A stretch of 33,158 bases of DNA from positions 1 through 33,158 of IMG/VR virus record IMGVR_UViG_3300028197_000079, one strand, 5' to 3'. The notes beneath the pieces are model-generated. The model ran no database searches. It saw only the letters and a list, made by a program, of their open reading frames with translations, and was not told where the DNA came from. Positions 1,745 to 31,605 of this stretch are shown in pieces; position 1 is the first letter of the stretch, and the number at the start of each line of letters is the position of its first letter. Origin of the DNA: a virus. Position numbers and translations under genes: made by a program.

Positions 1745-4333
1745 ATGCCAGCATGGAAAAAAGTAGCACTTAGTGGCTCCAGCACCGCCTTTCACCACAT
1801 AACAGCTAGTGGAAATATAAGTACATCTTGTGAAGCAACAATGTCTACAGGTCTTTTAGATCTATGCGGACCTCTACAAATAGGACCTGGTGGAATCATG
1901 CGAGATCCTGCAGGAAATAATGTAATAGTAATAGGAACAAACACTGTAGGAATGACTGCTGCAACTGTAACTAATGCACTTACGGTTGGAGGTGGATTTG
2001 GATCTACAGGAACTACAATCTCAACTACAGGTGCAATATCTACAAATGGTGCACTAACATGTAGTACTGGAAACTTTCCCTTCATAACTGTAAAAGGCCA
2101 AGGTGGTGTTGCAATTATTTTAGGTAATGGTGCAAACTTTATTAGTGATGAAGGTGTACTAATATCTAAAAGAGCTGATGAAGATGACGCAGATACAGAT
2201 GTAAAGTCAACCAAATTTACAAAAGCAGATGATACAGAGGCAGGATTTATTGCATTTAATGAATCTGAATTAAAGGTTAAGGAGCATCACCTTCTTACAA
2301 ACATGAACAAAGACCTTGCTGTTAAAAGGAACTATAGAATTCAAGTAGGTGGTTCTGCAGATGGAGATGTCATCTTCGACCTTGCGGTTGACCAAGCAGA
2401 AGTAAAAGCCCCACTTACAGCATCAGGTATAATTAGTGCATCAAAAGGTATTATCGGAGAGCTTACAGGTACAGCTTCATTTGTTACTAGTATTGCAGGA
2501 GCAGGAATGACAGCTGGAAAATTCGTAATCGGTGATGTATCTAATAAAACTGCAGAAGTAAATATGTCCGGCGATGCTGCAATGAATGGTGCAGGAGCAG
2601 TTACTATTCAACCAGACGCAGTAACATATGCCAAAATGCAAAATCTTGGTACTGCCAATAGAGTTCTTGGTTCTACATCAACTGGAGTTATTGGTGAAGT
2701 ACAGATAGTTACTGCTATGATAGCTAATGATGCAGTAACTGCAGATCATATAGGTAATGATGTCATTAATTCAGAACATTATGCCGCAACAAGTATTGAT
2801 AATGAGCATCTAGCAAATAATGCCGTAGGAACAGATGAGATAGCCGATGATGCAGTTACATATGCCAAAATGCAAAATCTTGGTACTGCTAATAGAGTTC
2901 TTGGTGCAACATCAACAGGAGCTATTGGAGAAACTCAAGTAGTTACTGCAATGATTGCAAATGATGCGATAGAAGAAGAGCAAATAGGTGCAGGAGAGGT
3001 TAAAACAGCAGCCCTTGCTGATGATGCCGTTGACGCAGACAAATTAGCTGCAAATGCCGTAGTAAATGCATCTATAGCAGCAAATGCAGCAATAGCCCAT
3101 TCAAAACTTGCAGCACTTGCCTCAACTAAAGTATTGGTAGGAAATGGTTCAAATGTAGCTACTGAGGTAGTATTATCTGGTGATGTAACAATGGATAATG
3201 CAGGAGCCGTAACCCTTGCCGCAGCACAAACAAATGTCACATCTTTATTAGCTACAGATATTAAGATTGGTGAAGATGACCAAACCAAAATTGATTTTGA
3301 AACAGCCAATGAAATTCATTTTTACGCAAATAATGTTGAACAGGTATATTTAGGAGATAATATATTTGGACCACAAACTGATAGCGATGTAGATTTAGGA
3401 GCTGATGGTGTTAGATGGAAAGACGCTTATGTAGATACAATTACAACAACTGGTGATGCTACTATATCTGGTGATGTTTTAGTTGGTAGTACTGGTAAAA
3501 TAGCAAACGCAGGCCAGGCAACTACTCACATTCAATTTAACACAGGTCAGATGTTGTTTGATTGTGCTGGCATTGAAATGATGCGAATGACTAATACTTC
3601 TGGTGTTGTATTTAATCTTGGTGGAGCAGCTGCTGCAGACTTTACTATAGAAGGTGATTCGGATGCAGGACTATTCTTTGTAGACTCAGGAGCTGATAAG
3701 ATATCTATAGGAACAGTAACAGTAGGCAATTCATTACTAACTGTCGATGGTGATGCATCACTTACACATTTAACCGCTTCAACAAATATAAGTGCTAGTG
3801 GTTATATTCAATCATCAGAAATTTTAGGAGCAGGATCAGGTACTACACAATTAAATGTACAAGGTCAAATAACCGCATCTGGTACTATTAGTGCAAGTGG
3901 AGCTATATCTGGACCAGCAGGATATAGAATATTTTCAAAAACAGGTACTACAGATGGAGAAGGTCAAGGAGATATTTGCTACTTTGGTACAACAACTTCA
4001 ATGACCGCAGGTGCAATATATCATTGGAATTCAAGTGGAGCATGGGAACTAGCCGATGCAGATGATAATACTAAGTGCGATGGATTATTAGGTGTAGCTT
4101 TAGGAGCTGCTTCGGCTGTTAATGGTGTATTATTGAGAGGAACTGTCACTCTAGACCACGATCCTGGTGCTGTAGGCGATGTAATATACTTAACAACAAC
4201 TGCAGGAGATGCAAGTGCAACAGCCCCATCAGGAAATGGAAATATAGTTAGAGTTTTAGGTTATTGCTTAGATGCCAGTAATGGACAGATTTGGTTTGAC
4301 CCAGATAAAACATTTGTAGAGGTGACTGCGTAA
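1745..4333 (+). CDS. Large tail-fibre-type protein, 862 aa
   Basis: Starts MPAWKKVALSGSS after GGAG at 1734. Residues ~15-80 are rich in ITASGNIST / TTGAISTNGALT-type repeats as in fibrous phage proteins. A central region carries two copies of the AVTYAKMQNLGTANRVLG block (from 2615 and 2849) and the long module shared with the upstream fibre gene. The last ~140 residues (GDICYFGTTTSMTAGAIYHW...GDVIYLTTTAGDASAT...) form a Gly/Thr-rich beta domain of the kind found at fibre C-termini. The TAA shares its last base with the next ATG (TAATG), so it is coupled to the LamG-like gene. Role inferred: tail fibre or fibre-associated virion protein; no lytic or catalytic motif was seen. Confidence 0.7.
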   Translation: MPAWKKVALSGSSTAFHHITASGNISTSCEATMSTGLLDLCGPLQIGPGGIMRDPAGNNVIVIGTNTVGMTAATVTNALTVGGGFGSTGTTISTTGAISTNGALTCSTGNFPFITVKGQGGVAIILGNGANFISDEGVLISKRADEDDADTDVKSTKFTKADDTEAGFIAFNESELKVKEHHLLTNMNKDLAVKRNYRIQVGGSADGDVIFDLAVDQAEVKAPLTASGIISASKGIIGELTGTASFVTSIAGAGMTAGKFVIGDVSNKTAEVNMSGDAAMNGAGAVTIQPDAVTYAKMQNLGTANRVLGSTSTGVIGEVQIVTAMIANDAVTADHIGNDVINSEHYAATSIDNEHLANNAVGTDEIADDAVTYAKMQNLGTANRVLGATSTGAIGETQVVTAMIANDAIEEEQIGAGEVKTAALADDAVDADKLAANAVVNASIAANAAIAHSKLAALASTKVLVGNGSNVATEVVLSGDVTMDNAGAVTLAAAQTNVTSLLATDIKIGEDDQTKIDFETANEIHFYANNVEQVYLGDNIFGPQTDSDVDLGADGVRWKDAYVDTITTTGDATISGDVLVGSTGKIANAGQATTHIQFNTGQMLFDCAGIEMMRMTNTSGVVFNLGGAAAADFTIEGDSDAGLFFVDSGADKISIGTVTVGNSLLTVDGDASLTHLTASTNISASGYIQSSEILGAGSGTTQLNVQGQITASGTISASGAISGPAGYRIFSKTGTTDGEGQGDICYFGTTTSMTAGAIYHWNSSGAWELADADDNTKCDGLLGVALGAASAVNGVLLRGTVTLDHDPGAVGDVIYLTTTAGDASATAPSGNGNIVRVLGYCLDASNGQIWFDPDKTFVEVTA
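2615..2947 (+). repeat. Internal tandem-like repeat in fibre gene, period 234 bases
   Basis: The block encoding AVTYAKMQNLGTANRVLG followed by an STG-x-IGE segment appears twice, beginning near 2615 and 2849 (shared word AAAATGCAAAATCTTGG at 2633 and 2867). The same word occurs at 199 in the upstream gene. Protein similarity is high, and the repeats can expand or contract by recombination. Confidence 0.8.
2846..3438 (+). repeat. Tail-fibre module, copy 2 (paired with 178-770)
   Basis: Second copy of the fibre module in the 862-aa gene, collinear and gap-free with 178-770. The downstream sequences of the two genes diverge completely, so the module is a shared stalk with different C-terminal domains. 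Confidence 0.85.
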
Positions 4334-19155: not shown

Positions 19156-19173
19156 GTAAAAAAAATTAAAAAT

Positions 19174-19207
19174 AAATGGCATATAATTTTTATATGTCAT
19201 TTTTTTT
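19174..19207 (+). terminator. Rho-independent terminator ending the prohead cluster
   Basis: AAATGGCATATA (19174-19185) pairs with TATATGTCATTT (19191-19202; one G-T wobble), loop ATTTT, followed by a run of T to 19207. Confidence 0.75.
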
Positions 19208-29587: not shown

Positions 29588-30079
29588 ATGGCTAACTTAA
29601 TAGATCCAAATGAAGCAATGTTTACGGCATTTGAGCCAAAACAGCAAAACAGATACATTTTCTATATTGAAGGTATACCTGCTTTTTTAATACACAAAGC
29701 TGCAAGACCAAAAATTACACAAGAAACTGTAACTCTTGAGCACATCAACGTTACTAGATATGTTAAAGGAAAATCTAAATGGGATGTTGTAGCATTAACA
29801 TTATATGACCCAGTAGTTCCTTCAGGAGCACAAGCGGTTATGGAATGGGTAAGACTACACCACGAATCAGTAACAGGTAGAGATGGTTATGCAGACTTCT
29901 ATAAGAAAGATGTAACGATCAATGTACTTGGACCAGTAGGTGATAAAGTAGAAGAATGGACTGGTAAAGGTGCATTTATTACTGAAGCAGACTTCGGAAC
30001 ATTAGATTGGACAGCCACCAATGCATACAATGAAATCGCAATGTCAATTCAGTGTGATTATTGGATACTACAATTCTAA
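29588..30079 (+). CDS. 19: Tail tube protein (gp19-like), 163 aa
   Basis: At 163 residues it has exactly the length of T4 gp19. Typical segments are FTAFEPKQQNRYIFYIEGIPAFLIHKAARP, VTLEHINVTRYVKGKSKWDVVALTLYDPVVPSGAQAVMEWVRLHH, VTINVLGPVGDKVEEWTGKGAFI and a C-terminal AMSIQCDYWILQF. The tube forms the inner channel polymerising on the baseplate. AGAGGAGAACAC precedes the start; a strong terminator follows, which fits a high-copy product. Confidence 0.93.
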   Translation: MANLIDPNEAMFTAFEPKQQNRYIFYIEGIPAFLIHKAARPKITQETVTLEHINVTRYVKGKSKWDVVALTLYDPVVPSGAQAVMEWVRLHHESVTGRDGYADFYKKDVTINVLGPVGDKVEEWTGKGAFITEADFGTLDWTATNAYNEIAMSIQCDYWILQF

Positions 30080-30214: not shown

Positions 30215-31072
30215 ATGGCAAAATCAAACCTAACAGACGATCAAATCAAACAACAACTTCTTGTTGAAAACAGCAAGAATGTTAATGAATCTAAGGGAAA
30301 AGTAGAATACAAATTCCCAACAGAGGTAGTAGATTTACCAAGTAAAGGTAAATTATATCCAGAAGGACATCCACTAAAGTCAGGTACTATAGAATTAAAG
30401 TATATGACAGCAAGAGAGGAAGACATTCTAACTTCACAAAATCTTATTCAAAAAGGTGTTGTACTAGATAGATTATTACAAGCACTTATAGTCACACCAT
30501 GTAACTATGATGATATTCTTATTGGAGACAAAAACGCAATAATGATAGCAGCAAGAGTTATGGGTTATGGCTCAGAGTATAAGGTGGAGATAGAAGATCC
30601 ATATACTCCAGGTGAAAAACAAGAAACTATAATAGACCTTCAAAGTTTAGAAGACTCAGATGTAGATTGGGACTTGGTTGGAGAAGACAATGCATTTGAT
30701 TTTGAATTACCTACTGCAAAAAGAACTATAACATTTAGACTTCTTACGCATGGTGATGAAGGAAAAATTGCAGAAGAAGTAAAAGCTCTAAAAAAGAACT
30801 TCAGAACTAGAGGATATGCTGGTGTAGATGCACAATTAAGCACAAGACTTAAGCATATGATTATAGCTGTAGATGGAGATTCAACTCCAAAAACAATCAG
30901 AGACTTTGTTGATAATCAATTTTTATCTAGAGACACTAGAGCATTCAGAGAACAAATCAAAAAGGTTTCACCAGATATTGATATGACGTTTGCATTTGTA
31001 TCGGATATTACTGGACAAGAACGAGAGATGTCAATTCCTCTTGGCGTCGAGTTTTTTTGGCCTGGGGCCTAA
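30215..31072 (+). CDS. 26: Baseplate hub assembly protein (gp26-like), 285 aa
   Basis: The signature EVVDLPSKGKLYPEGHPLKSGTIELKYMTAREEDILTSQNLI with a downstream LLQALIVTPCNYDDILIGDKNAI is characteristic of the T4 base-plate protein family including gp26. The C-terminus is IPLGVEFFWPGA. In T4, gp26 and gp51 act catalytically in hub/tape-measure assembly. The reading frame stops at TAA 31070-31072, but a second frame beginning at the T7 run (31052-31058) continues with gp51-like sequence. ATAGGAGAAA precedes the start. Confidence 0.85.
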   Translation: MAKSNLTDDQIKQQLLVENSKNVNESKGKVEYKFPTEVVDLPSKGKLYPEGHPLKSGTIELKYMTAREEDILTSQNLIQKGVVLDRLLQALIVTPCNYDDILIGDKNAIMIAARVMGYGSEYKVEIEDPYTPGEKQETIIDLQSLEDSDVDWDLVGEDNAFDFELPTAKRTITFRLLTHGDEGKIAEEVKALKKNFRTRGYAGVDAQLSTRLKHMIIAVDGDSTPKTIRDFVDNQFLSRDTRAFREQIKKVSPDIDMTFAFVSDITGQEREMSIPLGVEFFWPGA

Positions 31073-31310
31073 CTATAGGCCCATACTGCACAAGCAGATA
31101 TTTCAACTTTGCTACAACTCTAAAGGTGGGTTTACATTTTCGGATGCATATGAACTACCTGTGTACCTTAGGACTTACTATTTTAAACTGCTGGATGAAC
31201 AACTTAAGCTTGAAGCAGAGGAGATGGAAAAAGCTAAAACTTCAGGTGGTAAGTCATCATCAGGACCACCTAAAGTACCTACATTCGCGAGAAATGCACG
31301 TCCTAAATAG
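31059..31310 (+). CDS. gp51-like / tape-measure-chaperone-like C-terminal frame, reached by +1/-2 shift
   Basis: Translation in frame with 31059 gives GLGPNYRPILHKQIFQLCYN, GGFTFSDAYELPVYLRTYYFKLLDEQLKLEAEEMEKAK and a Lys/Pro tail. The IF..LCY...F...AYxLPVYLRTYYFK pattern is of the kind found in small proteins next to gp26 in T4-like phages. No ATG lies at its beginning; only TTG 31041 or CTG could start it, without a ribosome site. Shifting +1 (or -2) on T7 at 31052-31058 fuses it to gp26 after VEFF. Either a programmed frameshift, an unusual start, or a homopolymer error. Confidence 0.7.
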   Translation, partial: GLGPNYRPILHKQIFQLCYNSKGGFTFSDAYELPVYLRTYYFKLLDEQLKLEAEEMEKAKTSGGKSSSGPPKVPTFARNARPK

Positions 31311-31368: not shown

Positions 31369-31605
31369 ATGTCAAAAGAAAAACAATTACGATCTCAAAT
31401 CAGAGAATACGTTAGATCCGTTATCAAAGAAGACAATATTGTCAGCCGTTATCTTAGAAATATGGCCAAGAGAATGGAGAAAAGGGAGTTCGATAGACTT
31501 ATGTCAAAGAGACCTGAACTTAAAAAAGGTGTTGCTAAGATAGTAAAAGACGCCGAAGCCGAGTATATTGATAAGATCGAAAAATACTTAAGAAAAAATT
31601 CATAA
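31369..31605 (+). CDS. Small basic helical protein, 78 aa
   Basis: Fully helical and highly charged: MSKEKQLRSQIREYVRSVIK then EDNIVSRYLRNMAKRMEKREFDRL and KIVKDAEAEYIDKIEKYLRKNS. The N-terminal SVIKE-D matches the (I/L)xE peptide style seen in other genes here. AGAGGAAAT precedes the start. It lies directly before the tape measure. It could be a tape-measure partner or an internal virion protein; the function is unknown. Confidence 0.6.
   Translation: MSKEKQLRSQIREYVRSVIKEDNIVSRYLRNMAKRMEKREFDRLMSKRPELKKGVAKIVKDAEAEYIDKIEKYLRKNS

Follow-up and report, generated by a model that had tools for sequence, protein, structure and literature searches.

Long-tailed phages classically make the two forms of their tail assembly chaperone by frameshifting, and T4 has been named as the exception to this rule (PMC5009743). 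The chaperone genes of T4-like phages, gp26 and gp51, were identified in 2022, in a paper whose title argues for an alternative to frameshifting (Vladimirov et al. 2022, Virology 566:9; cited in PMC10274946 and PMC10885494). A paper that cites this study refers to poly-T sites for -1 shifts among T4-like phages (PMC12846349). In the literature, which includes Vladimirov et al. 2022 through its title and the papers citing it, we found no description of a T4-like group in which the second frame lies in +1. This work describes such a group. The locus under study lies in a 33,158-nucleotide stretch of viral DNA (IMG/VR record IMGVR_UViG_3300028197_000079), referred to here as the window, and very probably encodes the tail assembly chaperone of a T4-lineage myovirus, with two forms made from one gene through a +1 slip.

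Gene order and layout of the locus

Re-inspection of the window confirmed that a gp26-like open reading frame stops just past a T7 run and that the next frame is coding (Table 1). The 3' end of the gp26 frame reads GAG TTT TTT TGG CCT GGG GCC TAA. The downstream frame, referred to here as D, is in +1 relative to gp26 (equivalently, -2) and remains open to a TAG at 31308-31310. Genes at the locus follow the order sheath, tube, gp26/D, small ORF, and tape measure; this order is supported, and it places gp26/D between the tail tube and tape measure genes, the canonical site of the G/GT genes. The Mel-JY01 protein to which the truncated tape measure is similar itself matches tape measure PHROGs.

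Table 1. Features of the gp26/D locus and its neighbors (window coordinates)
Feature	Position	Strand	Evidence
Tail tube protein (gp19-like), upstream neighbor	29588..30079	+	phrog_4542, E 6.2e-23
gp26-like ORF, putative tail assembly chaperone short form, 285 aa	30215..31072	+	phrog_150, E 6.7e-9; PF12322, E 3.7e-5, just below cut-off; AlphaFold2 model
Slippery run U7 (0-frame UUU UUU U), proposed +1 slip site	31052..31058	+	YTT YTT T at 123/123 tabulated sites
D frame (+1), gp51-like C-terminal domain without its own start; predicted joined product, 364 aa	31053..31310	+	hhalign to cyanophage D, E 9.3e-10
Hairpin 5' arm GGGCCTA, beginning 6 nt past U7	31065..31071	+	Compensatory changes
0-frame stop TAA of the short form, within the hairpin	31070..31072	+	Reading of the gp26 frame
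Hairpin 3' arm TAGGCCC	31076..31082	+	Compensatory changes
78-aa ORF between the D frame and the tape measure	31369..31605	+	ORF listing
Tape measure protein, truncated by the contig end	31620..33158	+	Resembles the tape measure annotated in phage immuto (E 3e-13) and a Mel-JY01 protein (E 2e-27)

The 78-aa ORF is helical-looking and gives a weak match to phrog_8908. Elsewhere in the window, an intergenic segment (19158-19207) contains an A8 and a T8 run separated by about 40 nt and may be a terminator region.

Coding status of the D frame

Nucleotide diversity in the D frame, measured over 38 unique junctions, was 0.39, 0.27, and 0.58 at the first, second, and third codon positions, the pattern of a coding frame. 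Within the first 30 nt, third-position diversity fell to 0.18 (compared to 0.58), which indicates that the nucleotides themselves are under selection there. The plus strand of the 33-kb window has only two T runs that reach or exceed seven, and the 31-nt element consisting of T7, GGCCT, and the hairpin occurs once, with 0 occurrences expected. The D frame is neither a chance opening nor a sequencing error.

No usable start codon accompanies this frame. Its first ATG in the window lies 57 codons in, and the upstream opening spans only 22 codons, which hold three TTG triplets, none of them conserved. Near the junction, 19/38 unique loci in one set and 34/87 in another have no ATG, GTG, or TTG in the D frame. 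The conserved D sequence begins at the slip codons, and a product starting at the first ATG would lack most of the domain.

Distribution among phages

A search with the downstream protein retrieved 59 IMG/VR contigs with the two-frame arrangement, all of which have U7, D in +1, and a gp26 stop at equal spacing from U7. As a seed peptide of this search spans the junction, the search was repeated using a gp26 profile without its C terminus. This N-terminal profile matched at least 597 viral contigs and 16 genome-assembly contigs. Among the loci kept from this survey, D was in +1 at 92 of 93 readable junctions; the sole exception (locus L287) has no recognizable D. None of the 93 had D in -1 or in the 0 frame, so that the canonical -1 pattern (X XXY YYZ with the downstream frame in -1) was not what these junctions displayed.

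The arrangement is also present in the cultured Microcystis phage Mel-JY01, Flavobacterium phage immuto, and Rhodothermus phage RM378, with a frameshift annotated in none of them. In immuto (L062, NC_055915.1, 3526-3749), the D domain is mostly unannotated, and the hypothetical protein KNV73_gp038 corresponds to just the C-terminal end of D, called from an internal ATG. Two contigs with a gp26/D gene (L319 and L326) have been assigned to Woesearchaeota and Thaumarchaeota assemblies, probably through a binning error; the remaining genome matches are mostly from Flavobacteriales, which suggests Bacteroidota hosts. Only one copy of gp26/D is present in the large contigs and genomes (160-197 kb) of the +1 group. 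A tree built on the gp26 domain places the +1 members on one side of a branch (support of 90, one change), away from the -1 members and T4; the tree has long branches, and the placement of T4, CP220, and RM378 in it is unsure.

These data bear on several claims of the first-pass annotation of the window, made from the sequence alone. The linkage of gp26 and a gp51-like frame at T7 was borne out by both surveys, and the two-frame arrangement that it proposed to look for in relatives was found in IMG/VR contigs as well as in the cultured phages. Neither of the observations that it named as contrary, clade relatives with a separate gp51 or reads with another T count, was seen. Its description of the downstream frame as lacking an ATG and open upstream holds insofar as there is no usable start, with the qualifications on the distant ATG and the short upstream opening given above. 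The position that it gave, just before the tape measure, is the canonical G/GT place, except that the 78-aa ORF intervenes.

Slip site and hairpin

Every one of the 123 tabulated sites reads YTT YTT T: 97 are TTT TTT TGG CCT and 15 are TTT TTT TAC CCT, and the rarer forms include TTT CTT TGG and CTT TTT TGG. The seventh T is invariant, and the A-site codon is UGG, UAC, UUC, or UAU, never a stop. D is still in +1 in members whose run is interrupted (TTT CTT T). Where codon 1 encodes Phe, TTC was used in 0 of 122 cases, whereas it makes up 21.5% of the other Phe codons of the gene (P = 1.6e-13 under the assumption, not entirely valid, that the sites are independent). The slip site showed no conserved element upstream. 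In Streptococcus phage GXN1 (L065, approximately 4205-4229), the junction reads TTC TTT CGT, like the known UUU_CGU +1 shift site, and a D-like frame lies in +1.

Past the slip site, a 7-bp hairpin (GGGCCTA-ACTA-TAGGCCC, 31065-31082) holds the 0-frame stop. The first-pass annotation had missed this element. Its two arms are paired in 96% of alignment cells, three of the seven pairs have changed on both sides, and the covariation score of the stem was reached by 0 of 500 shuffles. One coupled change, which replaces Pro by Ala and alters a Gly codon silently, occurs in two separate parts of the tree. All seven pairs are kept in 38 of 118 unique sites, by eight different stem sequences. A few other sites have different GC-rich stems in the same position, and the wider group is mostly without a stem. 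The evidence for the hairpin is this covariation, and the element is clade specific: the single-sequence fold of the junction was ordinary compared to shuffles (z of -1.15; mean z of -0.35 in the wider group), and an Rfam search returned no family. Since most of the wider group lacks a strong stem, U7 is the core of the signal and the hairpin a clade-specific, nonessential addition. An intrinsic terminator was rejected because the U run lies 5' of the hairpin.

Protein family and homology

All 32 clade members matched phrog_150 (baseplate hub; best E value of 1.5e-18), and 26 of the 32 matched PF12322 (best E value of 1.5e-16), with the window sequence 0.5 bits below the cut-off. T4 gp26 and T4 gp51 are both strong matches to these two families, and the match of gp51 extends over the C-terminal part of phrog_150, which gp26 lacks; T4 gp26 and gp51 are therefore paralogs, one short and one long. 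The first-pass annotation had listed them as separately encoded hub assembly catalysts. They are indeed separate genes; the description is refined by their paralogy and by their identification as chaperones, which the title and the citing papers date to 2022.

Profile comparisons with hhalign aligned the joined product of the window clade with the cyanophage-type joined product from end to end (E value of 1.3e-15 over 284 columns). The latter in turn matched T4 gp51 (1.8e-9) and T4 gp26 (3.3e-17). D aligned with cyanophage D at an E value of 9.3e-10, with 50 column-shuffled controls far weaker, and cyanophage D aligned with the C terminus of T4 gp51 at 1.1e-6. Direct hhalign comparison of the window clade with single T4 gp51 or gp26 sequences gave nothing significant, nor did D compared directly with T4 gp51, and the gp51 homology of D thus runs via the cyanophages. 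At the level of sequence profiles, gp26 plus D is one protein, homologous to cyanophage gp26 plus gp51.

The gp26 frame and the D frame were modeled separately. When compared to viral models, the AlphaFold2 model of the short form (pLDDT of 83.6) matched hub assembly proteins of the T4 type. Its best two matches in the PDB are Bacillus subtilis YqbN (3klu, Z score of 5.7), an XkdN-like chaperone, and the HK97 tail assembly chaperone (2ob9, Z score of 4.9), followed by a match at 3.8; all lie below the safe level of Z 8, so that the likeness to the YqbN/HK97 chaperone fold is suggestive only. The D model gave weak helical matches only when compared to viral models with Foldseek, one of them a "tape measure chaperone" of phage Moogle (E value of 2.6). 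A sequence search for a solved structure found none.

Proposed mechanism and alternatives

We infer a shift at this locus, with its direction and rate, and an assembly role for the two forms as follows. Most ribosomes would complete the 285-aa short form (gp26) by standard translation. A fraction would slip by +1 at UUU UUU U (31052-31058), with UUU re-pairing to UUU, bypass the UAA at 31070, and append the gp51-like D domain to yield the 364-aa long form. In the window clade, the hairpin that begins 6 nt past the run and encloses the 0-frame stop probably makes the ribosome pause and determines how efficient the shift is. By analogy with lambda gpG/gpGT (PMC5009743), the role of the short form would be to cover the tape measure protein, and that of the scarcer long copies to bring in tail tube subunits through their D domains.

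The first-pass annotation had left the join as +1 or -2; that register was confirmed, and the junctions now point to +1 as the most likely direction. A -2 slip on U7, in which the P-site UUU would move back two bases and the hairpin would act as a backward stimulator, leads to the same frame. UUU re-pairs perfectly at -2, the U7 run permits this in most members, the NTT that it requires at codon 1 is conserved, and 3' hairpins mostly stimulate backward shifts (PMC10885494). However, the invariant seventh T would be superfluous for a -2 slip, and the junctions of two outlier relatives, TTC TTT CGT and AAC TTT CTA, can pair at +1 and not at -2. We regard -2 as improbable, and +1 is favored over it, not proven, since all seven U's are kept, the members with CUU_U fit the prfB slip, and these outliers pair at +1 only. 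That codon 1 is conserved hints at a joint forward movement of two tRNAs in the +1 slip. Tentatively, U7 might then be a forward heptamer, on which two tRNAs re-pair jointly by +1 on UUU UUU U as the mirror image of the -1 heptamer, with the downstream hairpin helping in one clade; we consider this possible but somewhat doubtful. If this reading were true, the T4 lineage would make the same chaperone pair in three ways: by a +1 slip, by a -1 slip, and by gene duplication.

Other routes to the D domain are less probable still. RNA polymerase slippage on T7 could yield an mRNA lacking one U, which would be read straight through to the same product, and a homopolymer does lie at the junction. A run of seven is short for such slippage, though; members with interrupted runs still have D in +1, and the RNA hairpin evolves under a pairing constraint, so that this explanation is very unlikely. 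Slightly less credible again is an internal start that would give D as a separate, small gp51 protein. The cyanophages, with an ATG directly after the gp26 stop, and the TTG triplets of the window would fit it, but the loci devoid of any candidate start near the junction, and the onset of conservation at the slip codons, upstream of most of the domain that a product from the first ATG would lose, speak against it. Homopolymers are error prone, and an assembly error or a decayed gene might be suspected on that account; with the same register at 123 distinct sites from many samples as well as in cultured phages, and with D under coding selection, the probability of either is negligible. Bypassing of the T4 gene 60 type was rejected, as no matched pair of take-off and landing codons restores the D frame.

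The putative +1 slip at U7 matters in several respects. The site, with or without the hairpin, constitutes a simple and strongly conserved +1 signal, in a class of shifts for which few general rules have been established. A single protein family now offers a test of how a programmed frameshift is gained, lost, or reversed in direction. Annotation is also corrected for phage genomes in which D was missed or called hypothetical.

Comparison with known systems

The locus resembles lambda G/GT, P2 E/E', and the Mu system in its two predicted chaperone forms, in overlapping frames between the tube and tape measure genes, in a slippery site near the end of the first ORF, and in a C-terminal extension. 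Lambda shifts by -1 at a canonical heptamer, whereas the window group has its second frame in +1 on U7, with a conserved hairpin after it in one clade. No sequence similarity between lambda G/GT and the window group was detected, and the fold likeness to HK97 gp13 is weak.

Closer relatives lie within the T4 lineage, where a large +1 single-gene group contrasts with the -1 cyanophages and with the duplicated genes of T4 and CP220. T4 gp26 and gp51 belong to the same protein family, with gp26 resembling the short form and gp51 the long form with D; T4 and Campylobacter phage CP220 have two paralogous genes where the window clade has one gene in two frames. The cyanophages, KVP40, phiM12, and HTVC008M share a D in another frame after gp26, at a U run, and the cyanophage joined product is homologous end to end. 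Unlike in the +1 group, D in the cyanophages, KVP40, HTVC008M, phiM12, and PhiW-14 is in -1 at a U_UUU_UUY heptamer just before the gp26 stop, usually with an ATG after that stop. The gp26 ORF of cyanophage-type loci (L129-L135 and L157-L236) finishes with U_UUU_UUC xxx stop; each of the 78 readable loci from IMG/VR shows this, and each has its gp51 domain in -1. HTVC008M has no usable gp51 ATG near the junction, and a -1 frameshift looks required there. Salmonella phage Vi01 (L132, 2295-2468) has a gp51-like frame in -1 that comes with neither a canonical heptamer nor an ATG close by.

For the slip itself, the nearest parallel is the +1 shift of prfB (RF2), which has a YUU_U P site that slips one base forward; YUU_U is present at 123/123 tabulated sites, with the exact CUU_U in some members. 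At prfB, the A site holds a stop codon and a Shine-Dalgarno sequence lies upstream, whereas the A-site codon of the window group is UGG or UAC. The first-pass proposal of a T4-lineage version of the chaperone frameshift system is supported by conservation, by gene order, and by the gp51 homology seen through the cyanophage profile. What appears to be new is a T4-lineage single-gene system of the lambda G/GT type whose probable shift is, unusually, +1, in contrast to the -1 heptamer of the cyanophages.
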